Origin: Sulfurimonas denitrificans DSM 1251
Lineage (GTDB): Bacteria; Campylobacterota; Campylobacteria; Campylobacterales; Sulfurimonadaceae
Direction: 5' to 3'
Assembly (NCBI RefSeq): GCF_000012965.1
Contig: NC_007575.1
Location: forward strand, 1,798,001-1,862,000
Length of the DNA stretch: 64,000 nucleotides
The translations under genes were made by a program, and so were the position numbers. Under the pieces are notes generated by a model. It was given only the letters and a program-made list of their open reading frames with translations, was not told the origin of the DNA and made no database searches. Below are positions 1,603-12,160 of this stretch, one piece after another (position 1 is the stretch's first letter; each line of letters opens with the position of its first letter).

Positions 1603-1672
1603 GCAGGTTAAATTTTAAGCTAGTTATAATGTTTAGAATATGCTTTTTAAGAGAAAACATAAAGAACTATGG

Positions 1673-1678
1673 TATAAT
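1673..1678 (+). promoter_or_regulatory. -10 element TATAAT, leaderless promoter of brnT
   Basis: GGTATAAT is followed by exactly six bases (TTTGGT) and then the ATG of brnT at 1685. Transcription would start at or next to the start codon, leaving no room for a ribosome binding site. None is visible. Confidence 0.5.
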
Positions 1679-1684
1679 TTTGGT

Positions 1685-1948
1685 ATGAAATTTGAATATT
1701 ATAGCAACAAATCAGATATTAATAAAGAGAAGCATGGTATAGACTTTGAGAAAGCTAAAGTGTTATGGGAAGATGATAACCTTTTAGAAGTTCCTCTACC
1801 TTTTAAAGAGGAAGTACGCCATTTATGCATAGGTAAAATTTTGAATAAACATTATTCTGCTGTAATTACATATCGAAGTAAAGCTATTCGTATTATATCT
1901 GTTAGAAGATCGAGAAAAGAGGAGATAAACGGCTATGAAAACAGTTAA
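1685..1948 (+). CDS. brnT: BrnT-family toxin (type II TA, RelE-like ribonuclease fold)
   Basis: This 87-residue protein has the BrnT (DUF497) pattern: MKFEYYSNKSD at the N-terminus, then KHGIDFEKA, then IRIISVRRSRKEE near the C-terminus, where family members keep catalytic Arg/His-type residues. BrnT toxins inhibit translation by RNA cleavage and are neutralised by BrnA. I chose the ATG at 1685 because BrnT proteins normally begin at this motif. A longer frame starting at 1640 adds 15 residues that do not fit the family; it too sits just behind a TATAAT (1625-1630). The gene overlaps brnA by 14 bp in the usual toxin-first order, and the pair is the first module of the array. Activity is inferred from family membership. 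Confidence 0.85.
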   Translation: MKFEYYSNKSDINKEKHGIDFEKAKVLWEDDNLLEVPLPFKEEVRHLCIGKILNKHYSAVITYRSKAIRIISVRRSRKEEINGYENS

Positions 1949-2162
1949 AGAGTTTGATGAGCTATTTGATAGTGGTGAAGATATATCAGAGTTTGTTGAT
2001 TACTCAAAAGCGACTAGACCAAATCTTGCCCAAAAGAGAGTTAATCTTGACTTACCAGTATGGATGATTGAAAAACTTGATAAGGAAGCAAAACGCTTGG
2101 GTGTTGCTAGACAAGCTATTATGAAAATGTTCTTAGCACAACATTTAGAAAAAGCAATATAA
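1935..2162 (+). CDS. brnA: BrnA-family antitoxin (ribbon-helix-helix)
   Basis: This 75-residue protein has an acidic N-terminal half that would contact the toxin and a C-terminal RVNLDLPVWMIEKLDKEAKRL segment typical of BrnA/CopG-type ribbon-helix-helix DNA-binding domains, ending in VARQAIMKMFLAQHL. It overlaps the end of brnT, so the pair is translationally coupled. BrnA both neutralises BrnT and represses the operon in characterised systems. Here the putative operator would lie between the GCTGGCA pairs and the TATAAT upstream of brnT. The gene is intact, so the pair can be a functional stabiliser of the element. Confidence 0.85.
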   Translation: MKTVKEFDELFDSGEDISEFVDYSKATRPNLAQKRVNLDLPVWMIEKLDKEAKRLGVARQAIMKMFLAQHLEKAI

Positions 2163-2171
2163 AAATAAAAT

Positions 2172-2202
2172 AGTACCTGAGTGGATTACCAACTCTAGCA
2201 CT
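2172..2202. terminator. Hairpin at cassette 1 / recombinase-remnant junction
   Basis: An imperfect inverted repeat (AGTACCTGAGTGG ... CCAACTCTAGCACT) follows brnA and precedes the remnant recombinase stop codon. It is the counterpart of the better-paired hairpins at 3021 and 4004, which sit in the same convergent position. A bidirectional terminator is likely; a recombination site is possible. Confidence 0.45.
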
Positions 2203-2237
2203 TAACTAGCTTCTCTTTGCTTTGTAATATAATGAAG
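2202..2237 (-). pseudogene. Remnant of the degenerate serine-recombinase C-terminus (copy 1)
   Basis: Read on the minus strand, this ends in the codons for LHYITKQREAS and a TAA stop. That matches the C-terminal tail of the intact gene at 4050-4604 (LLRHIARSKKSA) and even better the second remnant at 3048-3134 (LLRHIAKQRDKKSA). Only about a dozen codons survive. The position, directly after a module-end hairpin, is the same in all three copies, which is the main support for calling so short a fragment. Confidence 0.5.
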
Positions 2238-2300
2238 ATAATTTAGATTTGCCAGTACTCTTTGAAGCTCTATATCGAGGGAGATTGTAGTTGAAATTTT

Positions 2301-2318
2301 GCTGGCATATTGCTGGCA
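2301..2318. repeat. GCTGGCA direct-repeat pair, 11-bp period (cassette 2)
   Basis: GCTGGCA at 2301 and 2312, separated by TATT, is identical to the pair at 1585-1602 and followed by the same GCAGGTTA. The 50 bases to the left also match the block before the first module. Only one pair is present here, unlike the first and third modules. Confidence 0.6.
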
Positions 2319-2372
2319 GCAGGTTATAATGTTTATATTTGGTAGTTTTGGTAAGATGTAGCTTTATTGTGA

Positions 2373-2378
2373 TATAAT
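2373..2378 (+). promoter_or_regulatory. -10 element TATAAT of the PIN toxin-antitoxin module
   Basis: GATATAAT lies 28 bases before the antitoxin start, with a ribosome binding site AAGGGAG at 2394-2400. The module therefore has its own promoter rather than depending on an array promoter. Confidence 0.5.
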
Positions 2379-2406
2379 ATTAGATAAATTATTAAGGGAG
2401 CCAAAG

Positions 2407-2619
2407 ATGAAAAGTTACACACTTGAATTTCAAAATGAGAGTCTTATAAATCAGGTTATGAACTTCTTTGAACAGCTGCCACAAAATGAGGTTCATATAA
2501 AAGAGAACAAGCAGCCATATTCAATAGATGATGACTTCATATCTTATCTAACCTCAAACCCTGTAGAAATTGCACATAACGATAGCTTTCTAACTAGGGA
2601 AGATGCGAATGTGCGATAA
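2407..2619 (+). CDS. Putative antitoxin of PIN-domain toxin
   Basis: This 70-residue protein opens with MKSYTLEFQNESLINQVMNFFEQLPQNEV. The third module's antitoxin (MRTVTLKIEDDYFDKIISFLEILPKKAV) shares this layout, so the two antitoxins are related in their N-terminal parts. The rest is acidic and probably wraps the toxin. No classical DNA-binding motif is obvious. A good ribosome binding site (AAGGGAG) precedes the ATG, and the gene overlaps the toxin by 17 bp. The antitoxin assignment rests on size, overlap with a PIN-domain gene and similarity to the other array antitoxin. Confidence 0.75.
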   Translation: MKSYTLEFQNESLINQVMNFFEQLPQNEVHIKENKQPYSIDDDFISYLTSNPVEIAHNDSFLTREDANVR

Positions 2620-3016
2620 AGTATTTATAGATACTAATATAATTCTGTATGCGATAAGCACTCAGGATGCTGATAAACGTTCTATTGCAACACCTATAGT
2701 TCTGTCAGATGCTACAATAAGTGCACAAGTTATCAATGAAGCAAGTGTCAATCTACTAAAAAAACTAAAATTCAGTGAAGAGATGATTCAGAAGTTTGTA
2801 GATAGTTCTTATCACAGATATAATGTTGTTGAACTTACAAGGAATGTTTTTATAAGGGCTTCTGAGCTAAGAGAAAAATACAACTTCTCATACTATGACA
2901 GCATTATTGTATCTGCTGCTATAATAGCTAATTGCACAATCCTTTACTCTGAAGACATGCAACATGAACTAATTGTAGATAACCGCTTAAAAATCATCAA
3001 CCCATTTAAAAAATAA
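2603..3016 (+). CDS. PIN-domain toxin (VapC-like ribonuclease)
   Basis: This 137-residue protein has the conserved acidic residues of PIN-domain nucleases: FIDTNIILYA near residue 9, INEASVNLL near 46, YYDSIIVSAA near 98 and ILYSEDMQ near 117. Such toxins are Mg-dependent endoribonucleases that cut tRNA or rRNA. ATGs at 2603 and 2609 are both possible; both overlap the antitoxin. The gene ends just before the hairpin at 3021 and a fossil of the recombinase gene. All four metal-binding acids appear present, so the protein is probably active, though the RNA target cannot be read from the sequence. Confidence 0.85.
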   Translation: MRMCDKVFIDTNIILYAISTQDADKRSIATPIVLSDATISAQVINEASVNLLKKLKFSEEMIQKFVDSSYHRYNVVELTRNVFIRASELREKYNFSYYDSIIVSAAIIANCTILYSEDMQHELIVDNRLKIINPFKK

Positions 3017-3020
3017 AATA

Positions 3021-3048
3021 GTGCCAGAGTGGAAACCCACTCCAGCAC
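3021..3048. terminator. Hairpin at cassette 2 / recombinase-remnant junction
   Basis: GTGCCAGAGTGG and CCACTCCAGCAC form a 12-bp imperfect stem with an A-rich left flank and a T-run to the right (TCTTTTTAT), so it could end transcription from both directions. Nearly the same hairpin occurs at 4004-4033 beside the intact recombinase gene. Confidence 0.6.
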
Positions 3049-3134
3049 TAAGCACTCTTTTTATCTCTTTGCTTTGCAATATGCCTAAGCAGAGTTGACC
3101 TACCTACACTAAATCGTTAACGTACTAATTTGGC
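3048..3134 (-). pseudogene. Remnant of the degenerate serine-recombinase C-terminus (copy 2)
   Basis: On the minus strand, 3116 to 3048 reads RFSVGRSTLLRHIAKQRDKKSA and a TAG stop. The intact protein at 4050-4604 ends RFRVGRSTLLRHIARSKKSA. Five more codons upstream (AKLVR) can still be aligned, with one in-frame stop between. The match covers the recognition helix of the C-terminal helix-turn-helix and is too long and too well placed to be chance. It is direct evidence that an earlier copy of the recombinase gene stood here. Confidence 0.75.
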
Positions 3135-3241
3135 AATGAAAAGTAAACAAACTTTTCTTAGTATTTTTAGCCCTAAAACTCCCTAAAAACCGAGGAAGTA
3201 AAAGTTTGATAGAAGAGTGCTATTTTTTAGATAAATTTCTT

Positions 3242-3350
3242 GCTGGCATATTGCTGGCAAAAAATGAATTATGAAATGTACAATTGAGGCTCTTTAAAGT
3301 ACGACAATAAGGAAAATCATAAAAAAAAAGTTACTGGCATATTGCTGGTA
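3242..3350. repeat. Two pairs of GCTGGCA-type direct repeats, 11-bp period (cassette 3)
   Basis: GCTGGCA at 3242 and 3253, then ACTGGCA at 3333 and GCTGGTA at 3344, each pair with a TATT spacer. As in the first module, two pairs stand about 80-90 bp apart. The sequence to the left (3160-3241) contains TTCTTAGT...TTTTTAGC and ATTTCTTGCTGGCA, as in the element's left end at 1465-1500. This suggests a relic of an older element end inside the array. Confidence 0.6.
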
Positions 3351-3413
3351 ACTTAGTATATTTTTTAGCTTATTTTAAGTTTTTAGGTTTGATTATTAGA
3401 GATGGATTTTTGG

Positions 3414-3419
3414 TATAAT
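3414..3419 (+). promoter_or_regulatory. Extended -10 (TGGTATAAT) of the RelE-like module
   Basis: TGGTATAAT stands 30 bases before the antitoxin ATG at 3450, with the ribosome binding site AAAAAGGAG at 3434-3442. It marks a private promoter for the third module. Confidence 0.5.
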
Positions 3420-3449
3420 CATACTTAAGATTAAAAAAGGAGTTTGACA

Positions 3450-3647
3450 ATGAGAACTGTAACTTTAAAAATTGAAGATGATTATTTTGATAAAATCATT
3501 TCTTTTTTAGAAATACTCCCTAAAAAAGCTGTAAAAATTGAACAGCAAGATGAAGAAAAAAAACTAAAAGAAATAGAAAAAAACATAATTTGTGCATTTG
3601 ACGACATTAAACAAGGAAGAACTAAAAAAATTAGGACTGTTGCTTGA
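3450..3647 (+). CDS. Putative antitoxin of RelE-like module
   Basis: This 65-residue protein opens MRTVTLKIEDDYFDKIISFLEILPKKAVKIE, close in layout to the second module's antitoxin. A Lys/Glu-rich helical stretch and a short tail ending IRTVA follow. The ATG at 3450 has a strong ribosome binding site (AAGGAG); a TTG six bases upstream is less likely. Its stop codon overlaps the TTG start of the toxin (TTGA). It probably blocks the toxin by its helical C-terminal part and may autoregulate. Function is inferred from context. Confidence 0.75.
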   Translation: MRTVTLKIEDDYFDKIISFLEILPKKAVKIEQQDEEKKLKEIEKNIICAFDDIKQGRTKKIRTVA

Positions 3648-4003
3648 GTTCTCTTCTCGGTGTTATTATCGAGGAAACTGAAACTTTTGCCAAAGCTGTA
3701 AAACAACTTCAAAAACAATTTAAAAATGTAGAAACGGATTGTGATGAGTTTGTGCATAATATCAAGACTATAGACAATTTAGGTGTAAATTTAGGCAGTG
3801 GAGTTTATAAAGTACGAATTGCAAATAGTGATAAAAAAAGCGGTAAAAGTTCTGGTTACAGGCTTATCTCATATTTAAAACTTATTGATAACAAACTCTA
3901 CCTTATGTATGTTTACGACAAAAGTGACCTTGGCACTGTATCTGAAAAACAAATAGACGCATTAATTAAAAAAACCATTCTTGAAAAAACAAATAAAGAA
4001 TAA
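3644..4003 (+). CDS. RelE/HigB-like toxin
   Basis: This 119-residue basic protein has a RelE-superfamily profile: a helical N-terminus (FAKAVKQLQKQFKNV), then GVYKVRIANSDKKSGKSSGYRLISYL and LYLMYVYDKSDLG, the beta-strand core in which RelE-type ribonucleases carry basic catalytic residues. It starts at a TTG that overlaps the antitoxin stop by two bases, so it is translated by coupling. It is the last and apparently youngest module, directly facing the intact recombinase pair. The specific RelE subfamily is not certain from sequence alone. Confidence 0.75.
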   Translation: MSSLLGVIIEETETFAKAVKQLQKQFKNVETDCDEFVHNIKTIDNLGVNLGSGVYKVRIANSDKKSGKSSGYRLISYLKLIDNKLYLMYVYDKSDLGTVSEKQIDALIKKTILEKTNKE

Positions 4004-4049: not shown

Positions 4050-4604
4050 TTACGCACTCTTTTTACTCCTAGCAATATGCCGCAGTAGCGTACTTCTTCC
4101 TACTCTAAATCTATTGGCAACTTGTCGTGAGGTATTATTCTGCTTTAGCTCTATAGCTTTTAACACCTCTTTAGCACTAAGTTTTGGTGGTCTGCCTAAT
4201 CTTCTACATTCATCTTTTGCTTTAGAGATACCATAAGCTTGTTTTTCTACTCTTATATCCTCTATAAACTCGCTTAGAAAAAAGAGTAGTTCATCAAGGT
4301 TATAGCTATTTGAAGAGATAAACTGCTGTTTGGTAGCTTGTAGGATTATATGTTTTTCTTCAAAAGTAAACATAAGTTCTAAAAGAGTTTGAACACTGCT
4401 AGAGAGGATTGATAATCTTGTCACTGCTAAAATATCGCCGCAATGAAGTATCTCTACTACTTGAGCAAGTTTTACTTTGCTTTGATAATTGAGATTCTCT
4501 TTTGGTTCAACATAGATTTTACTACACCCTGCAGCTATAAGAAGTTCTGATTGTTCTTCTATCTCCTCTTTGTTTGTGGCTCTGATATATCCTATCTTTT
4601 TCAT
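4050..4604 (-). CDS. Degenerate serine recombinase (resolvase/invertase family), catalytic residues lost
   Basis: This 184-residue protein has the resolvase layout: an N-terminal domain opening MKKIGYIRATNKEEIEEQ, a long helix near residues 100-125, then RLGRPPKLSAKEVLKAIEL and a C-terminal helix-turn-helix (VANRFRVGRSTLLRHIARS). In active family members the segment is G-Y-x-R-V-S with the nucleophilic serine at residue 10; here residue 10 is threonine. The conserved L-D-R-L-x-R motif is replaced by RLSILSSS, so both active-site arginines are missing too. It should bind DNA but not cut it. The gene overlaps the upstream tyrosine recombinase by 4 bp (ATGA), so the two are made together. It may act as a DNA-binding partner or regulator; that is inference. 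Confidence 0.8.
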   Translation of the reverse strand: MKKIGYIRATNKEEIEEQSELLIAAGCSKIYVEPKENLNYQSKVKLAQVVEILHCGDILAVTRLSILSSSVQTLLELMFTFEEKHIILQATKQQFISSNSYNLDELLFFLSEFIEDIRVEKQAYGISKAKDECRRLGRPPKLSAKEVLKAIELKQNNTSRQVANRFRVGRSTLLRHIARSKKSA

Positions 4605-5203
4605 CGTATCATCGCTCCTTTGACATCTGCATCTGTTGGCTTGATATATCCCATAGTGGTTTTTACATCACTATGACCTATAAACTTTGAGATGATTTTT
4701 GTATTGATACCTTTTGCTCCCATCTCAGTTATAAGACCTTGTCGGAATGAGTGGGAGGTGTAGCCGTCTCCTAAGATGGATTTCATTACCTCGTTGACTT
4801 GAGCGATAAATGTAAATGGATGGATTCCTTCTCTTTTGTTTTGGCTGCTTCCTTTACTTATCACTTTTATTTGCAAGTCGGTGTCGGTTGTTATACTAAG
4901 TAGCTTTTTAAGTTGCTTTTGAAATTCATCACCTGCAAAGAGTTTGCGTTCACTTTTGGTTTTTAGTAAGAGAAGTTTTGTTTCACCTGTATCTAGTAGC
5001 TCTTTGATATGTAAGAGTTTCATCTGTTGTAGTTCATTAAGTCTTAGACCTGTGAAGTATAAAATTGTAAAAGCACGAAGTAGATTATCTTTGGTGTTGG
5101 GTCGTAGTGACTCATCGCCTCTGATTGCACTCATTAACTTTTTATACTCTTGTTCGGTTACTGATTCTTTTATCCGTTTGAGTGTTGGTTTTTTCTTTTT
5201 CAT
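4601..5203 (-). CDS. Tyrosine recombinase/integrase, short form (catalytic domain)
   Basis: This 200-residue protein is a phage-integrase-family catalytic domain with the expected residues: Arg in TGLRLNEL (near 54), HSFR (H151 and R154), GHSDVKTT (H177) and the tyrosine nucleophile in MGYIKP (Y186). It has no separate N-terminal SAM-like core-binding domain, so it is shorter than typical 300-400-residue integrases. It is the first gene of the two-gene recombinase operon and reads away from the right end of the element, as integrase genes beside an attachment end often do. It is the likely enzyme for insertion or excision of the array. Confidence 0.85.
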   Translation of the reverse strand: MKKKKPTLKRIKESVTEQEYKKLMSAIRGDESLRPNTKDNLLRAFTILYFTGLRLNELQQMKLLHIKELLDTGETKLLLLKTKSERKLFAGDEFQKQLKKLLSITTDTDLQIKVISKGSSQNKREGIHPFTFIAQVNEVMKSILGDGYTSHSFRQGLITEMGAKGINTKIISKFIGHSDVKTTMGYIKPTDADVKGAMIR

Positions 5204-5325
5204 CTCATTTCCTTATATTGTCTCCTTGTTTAGGGGTGTTTTATGGGGTTTTATTTTTGGTGGCGTGGTTGGAGGGGCTTTAAAATAGAAAAGTATGTGG
5301 GCTTGTTGGAAGTATAGTCAAGGGT

Positions 5326-5522
5326 GAAAAACCTTGTCAAGTAGGCATTGCCGACCATTTGCCGACCAAATTGAGCTAAAGTCTCTTTAAAAGTGTCTTT
5401 AAACCCTCTTGGGTTTTGGGACGGGGTAAAAAAGATGAGAAATCCTTTTGATATAAGGCTTTGAGGTGTCTCTAAAACTATTTTGGGACAGTAGGGGTAA
5501 AATCGCCCACCAATTGCCCACC
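5326..5522. repeat. Right end of the TA-array element with paired 7-bp motifs (copy 1 of 3)
   Basis: This holds GCCGACC at 5350 and 5361 and GCCCACC at 5505 and 5516. Each pair has a 4-bp spacer and 11-bp period, the same geometry as the GCTGGCA pairs. Between them lie two related blocks ending in GGGGTAAAA (near 5418 and 5494). It lies 120-320 bp upstream of the integrase start. Copies occur at 6545-6895 and within 7110-7306, so 5204-5690 is non-coding end sequence rather than an undetected gene. Confidence 0.55.
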
Positions 5523-5690
5523 ATTTTAGGTCGTTTTAAGTTTGAAAGAAATTTATGAATTTTAGAAGTTGTTACTTGTTGTAGCAGATTTGAGTGTTTG
5601 GGGTGGTTTTAGGTGTCTTTGAAATATATTGTTTGGGTGTGAAATGTGTTGGTTTTTTGGTGTGTTGCGTTTGGTGGTGGTCGGCTGGGA

Positions 5691-6437
5691 TTATTTTAAA
5701 ATTGTATTGATTGTTTTGGTACTTAGGTTTATAAATTCTGCTATTTCACTTTTTGTATATCCATATTCAAAAGCTTTTTTAATATTTTCATTTCTGTTAA
5801 TATCACGGTCTTGTTCAAAAAAAGTTTCTAATCTTTTTTTGAGAACTTTTAAATTGCCCTCTTTTGTTGTTATAAGCTTTGGAGATTTATAAACTATATC
5901 TATAGCATCTATATCCATTTCACTACTTAAATAATCTGAGTATTCATCATAAGTCATCTCAAAAATCATAGAATCGTTTAAAAGTTCAAAGTAGTTGTGT
6001 TTATATTTCCATTGAAAAAAAGATTGGTATTTATAAAGAGCAACATCCTGTACCATATTTGCTTTTATGGGATTTCTCTCTATATACTTTGCTACTATCC
6101 AAAAATGAGCATCATCAAATAGGGGATATGATTTGTATCTACCCTGCCAAAGATGACCGCTTCTTGTGTACTTTTTGTTAAAGTATTTTGCATATTTATC
6201 ATTTACAAACTGCATAGCTTTAGAGAGATTGGTTTGTTTTGTTTCTAAAAGAATATGATAGTGATTTGTCATAAGACAAAATGCGTGGATAATGAGTTCA
6301 TAATCTTTGGAGGCTTTAAGTAAAAGATCTAAAAAAAACTCATAATCTTCTAGTTCAAGATAGATAGATCTTCTCTCTACTCCACGATTTACAATATGAT
6401 AATAACATGGTTCTTGGTATCGTTCTTTTCTTGGCAT
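5691..6437 (-). CDS. REP-associated tyrosine transposase (RAYT, Y1/HUH family), copy A
   Basis: This 248-residue protein has the hallmarks of the TnpA-REP family: YYHIVNRGVERR near the N-terminus, the metal-binding HUH motif as FCLMTNHYHILLE (H59 and H61), and YAKYFNKKY with GHLWQGRYKS around residues 82-104, which supplies the catalytic tyrosine. A C-terminal helix-turn-helix-like tail (YTKSEIAEFINLSTKTI) follows. Such enzymes act on short palindromic REP sequences. Copies of GGTGCCTGACACC start 55 bp beyond its start codon. Its 5' leader contains no strong ribosome binding site. Confidence 0.9.
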   Translation of the reverse strand: MPRKERYQEPCYYHIVNRGVERRSIYLELEDYEFFLDLLLKASKDYELIIHAFCLMTNHYHILLETKQTNLSKAMQFVNDKYAKYFNKKYTRSGHLWQGRYKSYPLFDDAHFWIVAKYIERNPIKANMVQDVALYKYQSFFQWKYKHNYFELLNDSMIFEMTYDEYSDYLSSEMDIDAIDIVYKSPKLITTKEGNLKVLKKRLETFFEQDRDINRNENIKKAFEYGYTKSEIAEFINLSTKTINTILK

Positions 6438-6491
6438 GTAGTATTATAGTGAAATATGTATTAATTTTAAATTAAGTTTTGTTCCCATAAT

Positions 6492-6538
6492 GGTGCCTGA
6501 CACCCCTTTTTCATGTTCCCATAATGGTGCCTGACACC
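6492..6538. repeat. REP-like palindrome GGTGCCTGACACC, two copies
   Basis: Copies at 6492 and 6526, each preceded by GTTCCCATAAT and followed by CCCTTTT. The GGTG/CACC arms with a CCTGA centre can form a small hairpin. They adjoin the 5' side of transposase copy A, as expected for RAYT substrates. Confidence 0.75.
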
Positions 6539-6544
6539 CCTTTT

Positions 6545-6895
6545 GAAAAACCTTGTCAAGTAGGCATTGCCGACCATTTGCCGACCAAATTGAGCTAAAG
6601 TCTCTTTAAAAGTGTCTTTAAACCCTCTTGGGTTTTGGGACGGGGTAAAAAAGATGAGAAATCCTTTTGATATAAGGCTTTGAGGTGTCTCTAAAACTAT
6701 TTTGGGACAGTAGGGGTAAAATCGCCCACCAATTGCCCACCATTTTAGGTCGTTTTAAGTTTGAAAGAAATTTACGAATTTTAGTAGATGTAACTGTTTG
6801 TAGCAAATGTGGGTGTTTGGGGTGGTTTTGGTGTATGTTGGATTGGTGGTTTTGAGTTGGGTTTTTGGTGTGTGGGTTGTGTGTGGTCGGCTAGA
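6545..6895. repeat. Element right end, copy 2 of 3 (diverged, without transposase)
   Basis: From GAAAAACCTTGTC this matches 5326-5570 almost base for base (GCCGACC pair at 6569, GCCCACC pair near 6727). It then diverges, but keeps the GTGTTTGGGGTGG and GGTCGGCT landmarks to about 6895. The transposase gene that follows the other two copies is missing. No coding region is supported here, although short open frames exist. Confidence 0.65.
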
Positions 6896-6930
6896 ATAGG
6901 TAAAGGAAAGTTTAAGGAAAGTCCCGTTTA

Positions 6931-7018
6931 GGTGCCTGACACCCTTTTTTTCCATAATGGCATAATGGTGCCTGACACCCCTTTTTTAAGTTTTGTTCCC
7001 ATAATGGTGCCTGACACC
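6931..7018. repeat. REP-like palindrome GGTGCCTGACACC, three copies
   Basis: Copies at 6931, 6967 and 7006. The first follows GTCCCGTTTA, the others CATAAT. All are followed by a T-run. They lie between the second right-end copy and direct repeat B. Confidence 0.75.
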
Positions 7019-7067
7019 CTTTTTGCTTTTTACTTATTTTTGCTCTTCATTATGATGTGCCGACCGC

Positions 7068-8295
7068 AATAGAAAAGTATGTGGGCTTGTTGGAAGTATA
7101 GTCAAGGGTGAAAAACCTTGTCAAGTAGGCATTGCCGACCATTTGCCGACCAAATTGAGCTAAAGTCTCTTTAAAAGTGTCTTTAAACCCTCTTGGGTTT
7201 TGGGACGGGGTAAAAAAGATGAGAAATCCTTTTGATATAAGGCTTTGAGGTGTCTCTAAAACTATTTTGGGACAGTAGGGGTAAAATCGCCCACCAATTG
7301 CCCACCATTTTAGGTCGTTTTAAGTTTGAAAGAAATTTATGAATTTTAGAAGTTGTTACTTGTTGTAGCAGATTTGAGTGTTTGGGGTGGTTTTAGGTGT
7401 CTTTGAAATATATTGTTTGGGTGTGAAATGTGTTGGTTTTTTGGTGTGTTGCGTTTGGTGGTGGTCGGCTGGGATTATTTTAAAATTGTATTGATTGTTT
7501 TGGTACTTAGGTTTATAAATTCTGCTATTTCACTTTTTGTATATCCATACTCAAAAGCTTTTTTAATATTTTCATTTCTGTTAATATCACGGTCTTGTTC
7601 AAAAAAAGTTTCTAATCTTTTTTTGAGAACTTTTAAATTGCCCTCTTTTGTTGTTATAAGCTTTGGAGATTTATAAACTATATCTATAGCATCTATATCC
7701 ATTTCACTACTTAAATAATCTGAGTATTCATCATAAGTCATCTCAAAAATCATAGAATCGTTTAAAAGTTCAAAGTAGTTGTGTTTATATTTCCATTGAA
7801 AAAAAGATTGGTATTTATAAATAGCAACATCCTGTACCATATTTGCTTTTATGGGATTTCTCTCTATATACTTTGCTACTATCCAAAAATGAGCATCATC
7901 AAATAGGGGATATGATTTGTATCTACCCTGCCAAAGATGACCGCTTCTTGTGTACTTTTTGTTAAAGTATTTTGCATATTTATCATTTACAAACTGCATA
8001 GCTTTAGAGAGATTGGTTTGTTTTGTTTCTAAAAGAATATGATAGTGATTTGTCATAAGACAAAATGCGTGGATAATGAGTTCATAATCTTTGGAGGCTT
8101 TAAGTAAAAGATCTAAAAAAAACTCATAATCTTCTAGTTCAAGATAGATAGATCTTCTCTCTACTCCACGATTTACAATATGATAATAACATGGTTCTTG
8201 GTATCGTTCTTTTCTTGGCATGTAGTATTATAGTGAAATATGTATTAATTTTAAATTAAGTTTTGTTCCCATAATGGTGCCTGACACCCCTTTTT
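7068..8295. repeat. 1.23-kb direct repeat, copy B (element right end + RAYT)
   Basis: Second copy of 5284-6511. It is preceded by an extra GCCGACC at 7060. The copy carries the third right-end segment (GCCGACC pair from 7134, GCCCACC pair from 7289) and the second transposase gene. Confidence 0.85.
7475..8221 (-). CDS. REP-associated tyrosine transposase (RAYT, Y1/HUH family), copy B
   Basis: Identical in length to copy A at 5691-6437 and differing by one residue (Ile for Leu in DVAIYKY). The HUH motif NHYH and the YAKYFNKKY segment are intact, so it is predicted active. Six REP-like palindromes follow on its 5' side between 8276 and 8602. RAYT genes are usually single-copy domesticated genes, so two near-identical intact copies 1.8 kb apart point to recent tandem duplication rather than ordinary transposition. 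Confidence 0.9.
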   Translation of the reverse strand: MPRKERYQEPCYYHIVNRGVERRSIYLELEDYEFFLDLLLKASKDYELIIHAFCLMTNHYHILLETKQTNLSKAMQFVNDKYAKYFNKKYTRSGHLWQGRYKSYPLFDDAHFWIVAKYIERNPIKANMVQDVAIYKYQSFFQWKYKHNYFELLNDSMIFEMTYDEYSDYLSSEMDIDAIDIVYKSPKLITTKEGNLKVLKKRLETFFEQDRDINRNENIKKAFEYGYTKSEIAEFINLSTKTINTILK

Positions 8296-8602
8296 TGCAA
8301 AAAGAGAGAAAAGAAGAAGAAAGGAAAAATTAAGTTTTATTCCTGTTTAGGTGCCTGACACCCTTTTTTAAGCAGAAGTAAAAGATTAATAAAAAACTAA
8401 GAAAAGTTTCAAAAGAGTGCCTGACACCCTTTTTTTGGTATCGTTCTTTTCTTGGCATGTAGTATTATAGTGAAATATGTATTAATTTTAAATTAAGTTT
8501 TGTTCCCATAATGGTGCCTGACACCCTTTTTCAAAGAAAAAAATAAGAAAAGTTTCAAAAGCGTGCCTGACACCCTTTTTTCCTGTTTAGGTGCCTGACA
8601 CC
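8276..8602. repeat. REP-like palindrome cluster, six copies
   Basis: GGTGCCTGACACC at 8276, 8350, 8513 and 8590, with one-base variants at 8416 (AGTGCC...) and 8562 (CGTGCC...). Leaders fall into three types: GTTCCCATAAT, TCCTGTTTA, and AAGTTTCAAAAG. The 8222-8725 gap is filled by these repeats, a transposase 5'-end fragment and a terminator. Confidence 0.75.
8435..8525 (-). pseudogene. Third partial copy of the RAYT 5' end and leader
   Basis: 8435-8525 repeats 8198-8288: the first seven or so codons of the transposase, its start codon (CAT at 8456-8458 on the plus strand), the AT-rich leader and the GGTGCCTGACACC palindrome. The rest of the gene is absent. It shows that RAYT-proximal sequence has been copied repeatedly at this spot. 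Confidence 0.7.
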
Positions 8603-8620
8603 CTTTTTAAGAAAGCAGAA

Positions 8621-8650
8621 AGCCCCACTCCGAAGAGTGAGGCTTTGAGT
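8621..8650 (-). terminator. Rho-independent terminator of the S-layer-like gene
   Basis: AGCCCCACTC and GAGTGAGGCT form a 10-bp stem with one mismatch around a CGAA loop, 80 bp beyond the stop codon at 8726. On the minus strand it is followed by a T-rich stretch. Confidence 0.7.
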
Positions 8651-8725
8651 TTCTCCTTTGGACTTTTAAGGGTCTTTGGGGAGAGGTTTTAAACTTTACT
8701 TTTGAGGGTAGAGTTTGAGTTTGGA

Positions 8726-11700
8726 TTATAGACTGATTATGTCTAATGTTCCGTTTGTTGTACTGTATGATGCAGTTGAAAGATCAACTAGACCATTTAT
8801 TTTAATGATAGTATCTGCACCATTATCAAATACGCCATTGTTACTAACATCTTGAACGATATAAGTTGCTGCAGTAGCACCTGTACCAATTTGGAACCAA
8901 GCGATACCTGAAGTATTACCAGTATTTGCAACTGATGCAGCTTCTTGAGCATATTGTTCTAGAGTTGAGTTAGGGTCAAGTGTAATTTTTGATGAAACAA
9001 AGTTAGTTGCAGCAGTGTTAAACTTGATAGTTTCACCAACAGCTAAATCTGTAATATAAGCACCTGCACCTGAGTTTGCAGCTAAGAATCCACTTACATC
9101 AAATGTATCAATACCGTTTCCACCTGTTAATTGAACAAAGCTTGCAACGCTTCCAGATACGATAAGTGTATCATTACCGTCTCCACCGATAGCAACATCA
9201 TTTGCACCTTTAAGTGTAATAGTGTCATTAGCAGATCCACCTGTTACAGTTGTAGCACCTGTATCGCTTGCATTAGTTGTAACAGTAATAGCACCTGTCA
9301 TAGTTGATGCATTGATAGTTGCAACTTCAGTTGTAGCAGCACTTAATGTTAACGTTAAGTTACCAGCTCCATCAACTTTTAATAATGTTGCTTTATTAGC
9401 ATCAATTGCTAAAGTGTTTGTAGAAACATTTTCAACAGTTCCCGTTTTAGTTAAATCTGTATCGTTTGCAGTAATATTGATTGTTTCAATATTATTAGCT
9501 TTGAATGAACCAAGATTCGCACCCGTTGTACCGTTTGTAACAACATTAACTACATCTGTAAGACCAGTGTCTGTAGTAAGTTTTGCTTCTACACTACCAG
9601 CTTTATCTAATTGAACTGTTGCGTTTGCAAGCATTTTATCAAATAATATACCTACATTAGCTACAGCGATAGTAGTGCCTCCTGTAGTATCATTATATGC
9701 AACACCTTGAAGTGTATTACTTAAATCATCAGCAGCTAGTACTAAGTCTGCAGCACCAGTAGCAGTTACTTTTCCTGCACCAAGTGCAACAGCTTTAGAA
9801 TCCACTGCAGCATTAATCGCTGTGTTAAAGTCTCCTATAGCTGTCCCTGCTAAAGTAGCAGTATAAAGAGTACCATTGTAAACGAAAGTAAATGTTTCAC
9901 CTGATGTAGCAGCAGTAACAGCGCCAGTAAATGTAGAACCTGATGTACCATTACTTATAACATAGTTGATAGCATCCATGTTCTCTAGCTTAACTGTAGC
10001 TGCTGTTGCTACTGTACCAACACTTAATCTTTCAAATCCACTGATTTTATCTGCGAATAGTTTATCACTTGCAGTTAAAGAAGCTGCACTTGCTGCTGCC
10101 ATAGCGATTGTGTCTTTAGTACCTGTTCCAGCTTTAACTTCAACAGTTGGTACTACTACAGTTCCAACTAATGTTAATTTGTTATCACCGTTTCCTAAGT
10201 CGATTGCTTTAGTTGCAGTTGTACCTATTGTTACCATATCGTTACCAGCACCACCAGTGTAAGTAGCATTTGTAGCATCGATAGTAGTAGTTACAGTACC
10301 TGTAGTTCCTGTTGTTGTAACAGAAGTGATATTAGCAGATTCTGAACCTTCTAATGTAAGACCAGCAGTACCTGTAACAGTTACTGTTTTAAGTCCTGAA
10401 CCTACAGAAGCAGCAGATAAGTTTAGTAAGCCTGTACCATCAACATTTAATGTTTCAAGTCCATTGTCTGTATTTACTAATTTAACATTGTTAGCTCCAG
10501 TTGAAGTAACATTTAAAGTTTTTGGAGCAGCTGTAAATGTTAAATCTGATGCAACAGCAGTACCATTAAGGTTTAAATCATATCCTACATTTGAAAGTGT
10601 AAGAGCTAGCGTGTCTGCAGTGTCTGCAACTGTCAAATCAACTGTTTCAGCTACATTTGATAGGTTAAGTGTTGCAAGTTTAGTTGTAGCAAGTGCTGTT
10701 GTACCAATATCAGAAGTTGCACCATAACTATCAAGAGTGATAGATGTTAATGTGTGAGCAGCATTATCGTCAATTAAAACTTTACCTGCAGTAACACCCA
10801 TAACACCTGTTTTAGCAACAACAGCATCTACAGCAGCTACTAAAGCACCAACAGAAGATACACCAACAGATGCTCCATTGTTTGTAATTGCAGTTGCAGT
10901 GCTAAGTGAAGTTGAGAACACTACTTTAGAGTGTGTTGAATCTACAACTGTTGCTGTTGCAGCAGAAGTGAATTTGTCAGCCGTTATAATTGTAGCACCA
11001 TCAGAATAAACACCTAATGTTGCAGCAGCATTACCTTGCTTATCACCAGCTACTAAGCTAACGAATGCAGATGCAGCTTCAGCAGCAGTTAATATTTTGT
11101 TTGCTGTGAATGTAAGAGTTCCACCGTTGATAGCTAATGAAGCTACTGCTCCCTTTGCCATATCTGTGAAAGTAATTTCTTGAGTTCCTGCAGTTCCAGC
11201 TTTAGCTATAACTGCATCTATTTTATTTACTGCAGTATCTTGCTTAACTGTTACATTAGTTGTAGTAGCACCTGCAACTATAGTTACAGCACCTTGAGTG
11301 ATTGTGTTGTTACCAGTATCAGTTGCAGCAGCAGAAGCATCACTTGTAGCTACTTGTGTTACAGAGATAGTTTTACCACCAGTTACGCCAATAGCACTTA
11401 ATGTTGAGTCAGCTGTTGCAGCTGTATATGCAGCACCTGTTTGGTTAACTACTACATCACCTACTGGAGCAGTTCCACCAGTACCAACAGCTATAGTGTC
11501 AGCATTTGTACCAGCAGCTGTACCCATTTTAGTAGCATTAACTGTTACATCTTTAGCACCAAAAATAGTGTTAGCAAGAGTTGAAGCACCTACATTATCT
11601 TCTGAAATTGCAGCAGTAACATTAGTAGTTGCAGCAGCAGTAGCAGTTATTGCACCAGCACCAGCTTTAACAATTTTTAAATCTGTTAAATCAGTAATAG

Positions 11701-12160
11701 CTGAAGTATTGATATTAGCACCTAAAGTAGCAGTAACTTCAATAACTTCTACATTACTCATGCTAGGAGTAAGAATAGCAGTAGTAGCTATAGTATCTGT
11801 AGAAATCTTAAGTGTATCTACACCATTACCACCATTTACTGCATCAAGTGAACTTAATGTATTTAATTCTGCAGAAGTAGAGATTGAACCATTGAAAGTG
11901 TCATTAGCCTCAGTACCTACTAAGTTGTCAAGACCTTTAGTTAAATTAAAAGTCTCACCAACATTAATAGCCCCAGAAACTGCTTCAGTTGCAGCATCAA
12001 CTGTTGCATGATCAGAAGTGATATTTGCTAATTGAGCAGTAGCGATATCATCAGAAACACCATCAACGATAACAGCTTGAACAGCAAATTCTGCTTGGTT
12101 AGCTAAACGAATACCATCAGTATTACCTGTTGCGCCAGCTGCTTCTAACATTGCTTTCAT
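8726..12160 (-). CDS. Large S-layer/RTX-like surface protein, main part downstream of a frameshift
   Basis: The 1144-residue open frame is Thr/Ala/Val/Asn/Asp/Gly-rich, almost free of Cys, Trp and Arg, and built of repetitive beta-strand units. Near the C-terminus it has glycine-Asp repeats of the RTX type (GGSANDTITL, IGGDGNDTLIV, GGNGIDTFDV), which suggests Ca-binding and type I secretion. The frame really begins upstream at 12483: just before its first Met it reads QLDNSSVTGYTRGNI, which continues the DUF4214 domain of the adjacent frame. So the annotated Met at 12160 is not a true start. The neighbouring polysaccharide export genes fit a surface-anchored layer. A truncated paralogue lies at 1-1380. 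Exact family (S-layer versus RTX adhesin) is uncertain. Confidence 0.75.
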   Translation of the reverse strand: MKAMLEAAGATGNTDGIRLANQAEFAVQAVIVDGVSDDIATAQLANITSDHATVDAATEAVSGAINVGETFNLTKGLDNLVGTEANDTFNGSISTSAELNTLSSLDAVNGGNGVDTLKISTDTIATTAILTPSMSNVEVIEVTATLGANINTSAITDLTDLKIVKAGAGAITATAAATTNVTAAISEDNVGASTLANTIFGAKDVTVNATKMGTAAGTNADTIAVGTGGTAPVGDVVVNQTGAAYTAATADSTLSAIGVTGGKTISVTQVATSDASAAATDTGNNTITQGAVTIVAGATTTNVTVKQDTAVNKIDAVIAKAGTAGTQEITFTDMAKGAVASLAINGGTLTFTANKILTAAEAASAFVSLVAGDKQGNAAATLGVYSDGATIITADKFTSAATATVVDSTHSKVVFSTSLSTATAITNNGASVGVSSVGALVAAVDAVVAKTGVMGVTAGKVLIDDNAAHTLTSITLDSYGATSDIGTTALATTKLATLNLSNVAETVDLTVADTADTLALTLSNVGYDLNLNGTAVASDLTFTAAPKTLNVTSTGANNVKLVNTDNGLETLNVDGTGLLNLSAASVGSGLKTVTVTGTAGLTLEGSESANITSVTTTGTTGTVTTTIDATNATYTGGAGNDMVTIGTTATKAIDLGNGDNKLTLVGTVVVPTVEVKAGTGTKDTIAMAAASAASLTASDKLFADKISGFERLSVGTVATAATVKLENMDAINYVISNGTSGSTFTGAVTAATSGETFTFVYNGTLYTATLAGTAIGDFNTAINAAVDSKAVALGAGKVTATGAADLVLAADDLSNTLQGVAYNDTTGGTTIAVANVGILFDKMLANATVQLDKAGSVEAKLTTDTGLTDVVNVVTNGTTGANLGSFKANNIETINITANDTDLTKTGTVENVSTNTLAIDANKATLLKVDGAGNLTLTLSAATTEVATINASTMTGAITVTTNASDTGATTVTGGSANDTITLKGANDVAIGGDGNDTLIVSGSVASFVQLTGGNGIDTFDVSGFLAANSGAGAYITDLAVGETIKFNTAATNFVSSKITLDPNSTLEQYAQEAASVANTGNTSGIAWFQIGTGATAATYIVQDVSNNGVFDNGADTIIKINGLVDLSTASYSTTNGTLDIISL

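Follow-up and report, generated by a model that had tools for sequence, protein, structure and literature searches.

Organization of the locus

The window analysed here comprises 64,000 nucleotides of the Sulfurimonas denitrificans DSM 1251 genome (positions 1798001-1862000 of a single contig of 2,201,561 bases) and harbors two RAYT genes, which encode Y1 HUH transposase-like proteins of 248 amino acids. The genes for RAYT copy 1 (5691-6437) and RAYT copy 2 (7475-8221) are both located on the minus strand, and their products differ by one residue. The two genes are part of a 1.2-kb tandem duplication, which is an addition to what the first-pass annotation of this DNA had described: positions 5278-6518 are 98.8% identical to positions 7062-8302, and the far end of the duplicated unit is found a third time as a partial copy of 270 nt (6537-6806, 95.2% identity). 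The partial transposase 5′ end that had been noticed among the repeats is real. This minus-strand fragment (8435-8513) contains the region upstream of a RAYT and about its first 7 codons; it joins the T-run of the hairpin at 8416 directly and forms a left-hand homology of 79 nt, from about position 8435, in front of the hairpin copy at 8513. A third close RAYT with two stops, thus broken, is encoded at genome positions 1793674-1794228, and a distant relative at 1790884-1791234. Adjoining the duplicated unit, a resolvase-like and a tyrosine-recombinase-like gene are positioned side by side (4050-5203), and BrnT-like, PIN-domain and RelE-like ORFs at 1640-4003 may be toxin-antitoxin genes.

Scanning the window with up to two mismatches gave eleven matches to the 13-mer GGTGCCTGACACC, all on the plus strand between 6492 and 8602, and no copy in the remainder of the 64 kb. 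Nine copies are exact and two carry a change of the first base, as the first-pass annotation had it. The exact copies start with copy 1 at 6492-6504, the centre of which is located about 61 nt upstream of the start codon of RAYT copy 1, followed by copies 2 (6526-6538), 3 (6931-6943), 4 (6967-6979) and 5 (7006-7018). Copy 6 (8276-8288) lies upstream of RAYT copy 2 and is followed by copy 7 (8350-8362), by copy 9 (8513-8525), where the RAYT 5′ fragment ends, and by copy 11 (8590-8602). The changed copies are copy 8 (8416-8428, first base A), which folds with outer AAAAG/CTTTT arms, and copy 10 (8562-8574, first base C). Each copy has a 4-bp stem (GGTG/CACC) and a 5-nt loop (CCTGA), with a weak predicted stability of about -3 kcal/mol as DNA; in AGTGCC copies the first base pair is gone. 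On the 3′ side all copies continue with one or two further C and then four to seven T. Three kinds of leader precede the copies, namely GTTCCCATAAT and shorter forms of it, TCCTGTTTA or CCCGTTTA, and TTTCAAAAG; both these leaders and the T-runs agree with the earlier description.

The count expected from shuffled sequence is 0.26, and none of 100 shuffles reached eleven copies. Together with the reversed-word control, which is absent from 397 Campylobacterota genomes, this leads us to reject a chance origin. A known RNA family and a phage origin were rejected too, as Rfam gave no matches at 4500-9500 and the doubled hairpin pattern was found in no stretch of the viral contigs.

In the whole genome the exact 13-mer occurs eleven times, nine times in the cluster and once each at 1796080 (1.9 kb outside the window) and 2040161. 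The exact 11-mer GTGCCTGACAC occurs 13 times, and 12 of these are contained in a 13-kb stretch with two intact RAYTs and the broken one. Nine more sites match the 11-mer with one mismatch, and five of these are no more than 6 kb away from the copy at 2040162. The cluster is a real, local expansion of an older hairpin. In the same genome, hairpin variants form a second group, degenerate in sequence (GTGCCTGTCAC and others), at 2040161-2045678 (positions 4162-9668 of locus L017), far from any RAYT found.

Classification of the enzyme

RAYT copy 1, the copy that was scanned, matches the Pfam domain PF01797 (Y1_Tnp, E=4e-17). Its score against the NCBIfam model NF047646 (REP_Tyr_transpos) is 66.3 bits, which is under the cut-off of 80 for this equivalog. 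The protein possesses the features of RAYT or TnpA-REP proteins (class 2 Y1 HUH), i.e. the Y1_Tnp domain, the HUH motif and the Y---NP motif, and an alignment of 11 RAYTs showed that NHYH and YIERNP are invariant or nearly so. In Foldseek, the predicted model (mean pLDDT 78.7) has its best fold match in 4er8, a structure of the E. coli RAYT in complex with a REP hairpin (E 3.5e-7, TM 0.72 by target length); a sequence profile also matches 4er8 (E 1.2e-7).

According to the account of Quentin et al. 2018 (PMC6006769), subclass 2.1 or group 1 is marked by NH[YF]H or NHVH, W[EQ] or FQ, YIELNP or Y[IV]HLNP, and a length of about 238 amino acids. The NHYH, WQ and 248 amino acids of the window RAYT fit these hallmarks, and YIERNP is one residue off YIELNP. 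The window RAYT resembles RAYT group 1/TnpAY1 subclass 2.1 as portrayed there in its Y1 HUH core, its motifs (NHYH, WQ and Y---NP), its length of about 240-250 amino acids and its C-terminal extension, and also in a patchy, cross-phylum distribution that is prominent in epsilonproteobacteria. Helix-turn-helix matches in the C-terminal region of the window RAYT are weak and below cut-offs; HTH_23 was found in 4 of the 11 aligned members, with a best E of 0.0018, which is weak. Long RAYT-like proteins (461-481 amino acids) with an extra C-terminal region are encoded at L016 (3871-5256), next to an ABC-transporter-like gene, and at L049 (5795-7237).

Genes next to the arrays

At 7 of the 18 Campylobacterota loci examined, a large Ala/Thr-rich, surface-protein-like ORF is found about 40-363 nt upstream of the first hairpin, always in the same relative orientation. 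These ORFs are located at 8726-12160 in the window, L016 10238-13381, L017 2-4120, L039 5040-8447, L041 1527-4676, L052 422-3205 and L060 3990-8000. Between the hairpins there are repeated small proteins of about 70-90 amino acids, probably membrane-bound, as if duplications had carried them (L039 8967-11618, L041 5038-7246, L017 4362-4604 and L040 7665-7919).

The hairpins might serve in transcription, as weak intrinsic terminators or as elements of mRNA 3′ ends, and have been kept because a hairpin with a T-run would stop transcription on the 3′ side of both the large surface-protein gene and the RAYT genes. The four to seven T after each window copy and the short distance at which the first copy follows the large ORF at those 7 loci would suit such a role. 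The stem has only four base pairs, however, with about -3 kcal/mol as DNA, and relative to the surface-protein gene and the RAYTs the run is an A-run that comes first, so that the signal would be antisense to both; moreover, the T-run is missing in many other lineages that keep the core. We consider this explanation very unlikely.

The same word in other genomes

The exact 13-mer is present in 8 of 397 Campylobacterota genomes and the reversed control in none. A scan of genome contigs for two copies 6-36 nt apart gave at least 116 stretches, and the array matches listed cover at least ten phyla by record title, some of which may be wrong for MAGs: Campylobacterota, Bacillota, Pseudomonadota, Planctomycetota and Myxococcota, as well as Armatimonadota, Spirochaetota, Actinomycetota, Acidobacteriota and Caldisericota. 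The first-pass annotation had proposed that the cluster is a candidate birthplace of a dispersed REP family. This proposal does not hold up, with only two exact 13-mers outside the cluster, neither of them preceded by GTTCCCATAAT or TCCTGTTTA, and with a word that already occurs in arrays of all these phyla and is dispersed in up to 360 copies in the Neobacillus genus.

From the motif-scan matches listed, one locus was taken per organism, for 45 organisms. A RAYT was detected at E<=1e-5 in 35 of these 45 genomes, and all 35 also pass 1e-10; after removal of seven genomes that had fed the search alignment the fraction is 28 of 38. For comparison, the same alignment at 1e-10 detected a RAYT in 8 of 61 genomes of a Bordetella-centred family. 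Of the ten motif-array genomes in which no RAYT was detected, several have arrays that look like ordinary coding tandem repeats, and some of the arrays listed are probably such repeats unrelated to RAYTs (e.g. L109). The 45 genomes hold 2 to 256 copies of the 12-mer each, against three reversed-control matches in total. In a literature search that covered running text, 18 papers contained the 11-mer in either orientation, and none of the 17 titles listed concerns bacterial repeats; Fig. 9 of PMC3733652 may show similar words.

Association of the hairpin with RAYT genes

The exact 11-mer is located within about 1.5 kb of a RAYT at 17 of 30 loci from motif genomes, at 24 of 30 loci from the Neobacillus genus and at 5 of 30 Campylobacterota loci; one further Campylobacterota locus has the GGGG form only and the other 24 have no such hairpin. 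In a Lachnospiraceae-centred family 1 of 26 loci has the 11-mer, in a genome that was itself found by the motif, and in a Bordetella-centred family 0 of 7. Seven RAYTs occur in two of these groups. Composition-shuffled words average 0.003-0.027 loci per group. At RAYT loci of motif genomes outside the search alignment, the 12-mer was present at 10 of 23, compared to 1.03 expected from genome density when relatives are counted as independent and genome sizes are rounded. The palindrome thus belongs with RAYT genes, as proposed earlier, both in the window genome and, far above expectation, in others; an even genome-wide spread with no enrichment near RAYTs was not what we found.

By title, the word is found beside RAYTs in six phyla: Campylobacterota, Bacillota, Planctomycetota (L199), Actinomycetota (L214), Pseudomonadota (L219) and Myxococcota (L220). 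The RAYTs adjoining the exact word are down to 28-34% identical to the window RAYT. L165 and L181 also hold the 11-mer. The fetched flanks of 65 of 116 RAYT loci contain no such hairpin. Near the RAYT of L168, which is 55% identical to that of the window, there is a different palindrome, AGCCAAATTGGCT, with three copies at 1369, 2749 and 3312, and three inverted pairs of CCCCGGGACGGGG surround a Lachnospiraceae-family RAYT (L265, 129-2086).

In the genus of Neobacillus sp. SuZ13 the hairpin word tracks one RAYT clade. In this sample of 60 genomes, copies were counted as 12-mers, and RAYT-A (E<=1e-80, 63-100% identity) was separated from RAYT-B (best match at E 1e-60 to 1e-80) by a cut chosen after the E-values had been seen. 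The 27 genomes with RAYT-A hold 24-360 copies each, the 19 with RAYT-B as best match 0-12 copies each, and the other 14 hold 0-223. At least 20 copies were present in 10 of the 33 genomes without RAYT-A, and four genomes in which no intact close RAYT was found (G404, G460, G474 and G480) have 195-223 copies. Fisher's test for at least 20 copies gives p 4e-9, uncorrected for relatedness and with the cut set post hoc. The exact 13-mer lies within about 1.5 kb of the RAYT at 24 of 27 RAYT-A loci, versus none of the three RAYT-B loci fetched.

Stem variants and phylogeny

Repeated 13-mers with the core GNCTGAC were collected from 123 RAYT loci. The word GGTGCCTGACACC is repeated at 26 loci, AGTGCCTGACACC at 7, GGGGTCTGACCCC at 5 (L166, L167, L259, L274 and L280) and GGTGTCTGACACC at 3 (L219, L222 and L283), in addition to eight rarer words. 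The stem variants, obtained from RAYT-first searches, keep CTGA in the loop. A repeated NNNGNCTGACNNN word is present at 42 of the 123 loci, seven of which are duplicates, whereas 122 permuted cores gave a mean of 0.66 and a maximum of 7. Of the 12 word types, 7 pair at position 1, all 12 at position 2 and 8 at position 3, and a stem would lead one to expect the change at position 3/11 from T-A to G-C.

This pairing bears on the possibility that the copies are operator sites, to which a helix-turn-helix in the C-terminal region of the RAYT would bind as duplex for autoregulation, the array being a decoy or by-product. At six loci of close Campylobacterota RAYTs (L012, L164 and L193-L196) the first copy upstream of the gene has its centre 59-61 nt ahead of the start codon, a spacing that an operator could explain and with which the weak C-terminal HTH-like matches are compatible. 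Retention of pairing at position 3 in 8 of the 12 repeated word types, on the other hand, points to a folded strand, and dispersed families of up to 360 copies lie away from RAYT genes. We therefore regard autoregulatory sites as highly improbable.

A tree was constructed from 116 loci (115 rows, with seven duplicates removed by hand), in which L199 and L214 are on long branches and their placement is unsure. The exact-word label requires 13 changes on the tree of 115 RAYTs (at least 12 by well-supported branches) compared to 33 when shuffled, i.e. far fewer than shuffled, yet far from one origin. Recent horizontal transfer of one RAYT-hairpin cassette between phyla, as opposed to retention or re-evolution in an old family, would account for the patchy distribution, with the 13-mer in so few of the Campylobacterota genomes. 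It fits poorly with these 12 or more changes and with the low identity of the RAYTs beside the exact word, and appears unlikely to us.

Proposed explanation and growth of the array

The best explanation is that the 13-mer is the cognate hairpin of a RAYT of group 1/subclass 2.1 and that the cluster is its REP-like array; for this reading we estimate a probability of roughly 0.75 on sequence comparisons. The pairing of enzyme and hairpin is likely, and growth of the array by joining of copies with a fixed end is a hypothesis. The word is enriched beside RAYTs, tracks one clade and folds as a short hairpin, its stem variants occur beside other RAYTs, and the spacing of 59-61 nt from the start codon at the six loci of close Campylobacterota RAYTs also speaks for the pairing.

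In the proposed mechanism, the RAYT would bind the hairpin in single-stranded DNA and cut at the T-run that follows the hairpin 3′, or close to this run; on the RAYT coding strand this is the A-run side. The array would grow as copies are joined with one end fixed at the cut and the other variable, as in a one-ended HUH reaction. Such joining would give truncated leaders, a RAYT 5′ fragment and a tandem RAYT copy. The same pair of enzyme and hairpin would have given rise to dispersed families in other lineages, Bacillaceae in particular. For E. coli-type RAYTs, cleavage at CT on both the 5′ and the 3′ side of the REP is reported (PMC8266576), and CT sits immediately 3′ of the window hairpin.

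Several features of the window match this mechanism. Its leaders represent a small number of sequences in versions of different length. Among pairs of copies with a shared left flank of at least 9 nt, 10 of 12 break within 3 nt of the preceding T-run. In all arrays taken together, 10 pairs have a left flank in common over 60 nt or more; nine of them share only 7-8 nt on the right, and the remaining one, from a tandem triple, shares 266 nt. RAYT 5′ fragments run straight into a hairpin in the window, in L052 (two) and in L060 (two), with different endpoints (about residues 7, 65, 92 and 43). The varied fragment ends and the shared left flanks suggest joints with one end fixed near the hairpin and the other variable.

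A general rule of a fixed and a variable end is not supported. The spread of left versus right lengths showed no difference in 24 perfect short tandem duplications from several phyla (swap p=0.42), a break at the preceding tail occurs in only 15 of 131 pairs from nine Campylobacterota arrays, and the copies of L066 have a fixed shared leader of 9-10 nt, unlike those of the window. Because the rule failed these tests of generality, we treat the growth mechanism as a hypothesis and the pairing as likely.

The short perfect duplications without left/right asymmetry would also be expected if the array were a minisatellite that ordinary slippage during replication, together with homologous exchange from one hairpin to another, had built up and that carries the RAYT along, and unequal exchange between two flanking hairpins could yield the 1.2-kb tandem RAYT copy. 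This would leave unexplained why the same word lies beside RAYTs in six phyla and how RAYT-internal joints arise where no hairpin existed before, and we rate it as rather improbable.

Comparison with known repeat families

According to Quentin et al. 2018 (PMC6006769), automatic as well as manual searches failed to find REP-like sequences for subclasses 2.1 and 2.3, and in the same survey 14.9% of strains are in a RAYT subclass without identified REP. The specific hairpin associated with the enzyme here sets it apart from subclass 2.1 as described in that text. Of the published TIRYTs, 20 of 26 are assigned there to subclass 2.1.

For the terminal inverted repeats (TIRs) of TIRYT genes, Di Nocera et al. 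2013 (PMC3733652) give the consensus GGGGWSAS. The variant GGGGTCAGACCCC, found beside RAYTs of two Lachnospiraceae-family, one Bordetella-family and two Campylobacterota genomes, fits this consensus, and the repeats are, like the TIRs described there, moderately abundant and partly clustered. The window word GGTGTCAG has no GGGG and does not fit GGGGWSAS. The window copies are also arranged head-to-tail in one orientation on the upstream side, unlike the inverted repeats that are described as flanking the TIRYT gene; inverted repeats on both sides of the gene are present at L199. Since GGGGTCAG fits GGGGWSAS, the window word appears to be a stem variant of the TIRYT TIR kind, which in our reading is a hairpin with a kept loop core.

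Similar to canonical REPs and REPINs, the window word is a short hairpin beside a RAYT, with dispersed copies and inverted doublets in other genomes: a hand count of doublets within 64 nt gave 8 among 30 copies in G422 and 7 among 28 in G426, and the window has no doublets of the REPIN type. Unlike canonical REPs, none of the 11 window copies has the GTAG/GTGG foot, and nine of the 11 exact 13-mers of the window genome are clustered and not dispersed, as opposed to the high dispersed copy numbers of other genomes. The core is moreover identical across phyla, whereas PMC6006769 refers to REPs as species-specific. IS200/IS605 elements (IS608, ISDra2) share a related HUH Y1 enzyme and subterminal hairpins, but we identified no element here that has two defined ends.

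Significance

Judged from these comparisons, the window hairpin is most likely the sequence that is cognate to a RAYT class for which none had been reported, and the finding matters because a published survey had found no such partner for this large RAYT group. As a more tentative and somewhat doubtful extension, one hairpin code, GGKGYCTGACMCC, may be an ancient substrate common to group-1 RAYTs across phyla, its 11-nt core kept or re-evolved unchanged beside enzymes at about 30% identity, with one-ended HUH growth of the arrays. If true, the second largest published RAYT subclass would gain its missing cognate sequence. The 13-nt hairpin, its stem variants and the occurrence in one genus of RAYT-A (with the word) and RAYT-B (without it) make the substrate of the class directly testable in vitro. 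A recognition word conserved across phyla would deviate from the rule of species-specific REPs.
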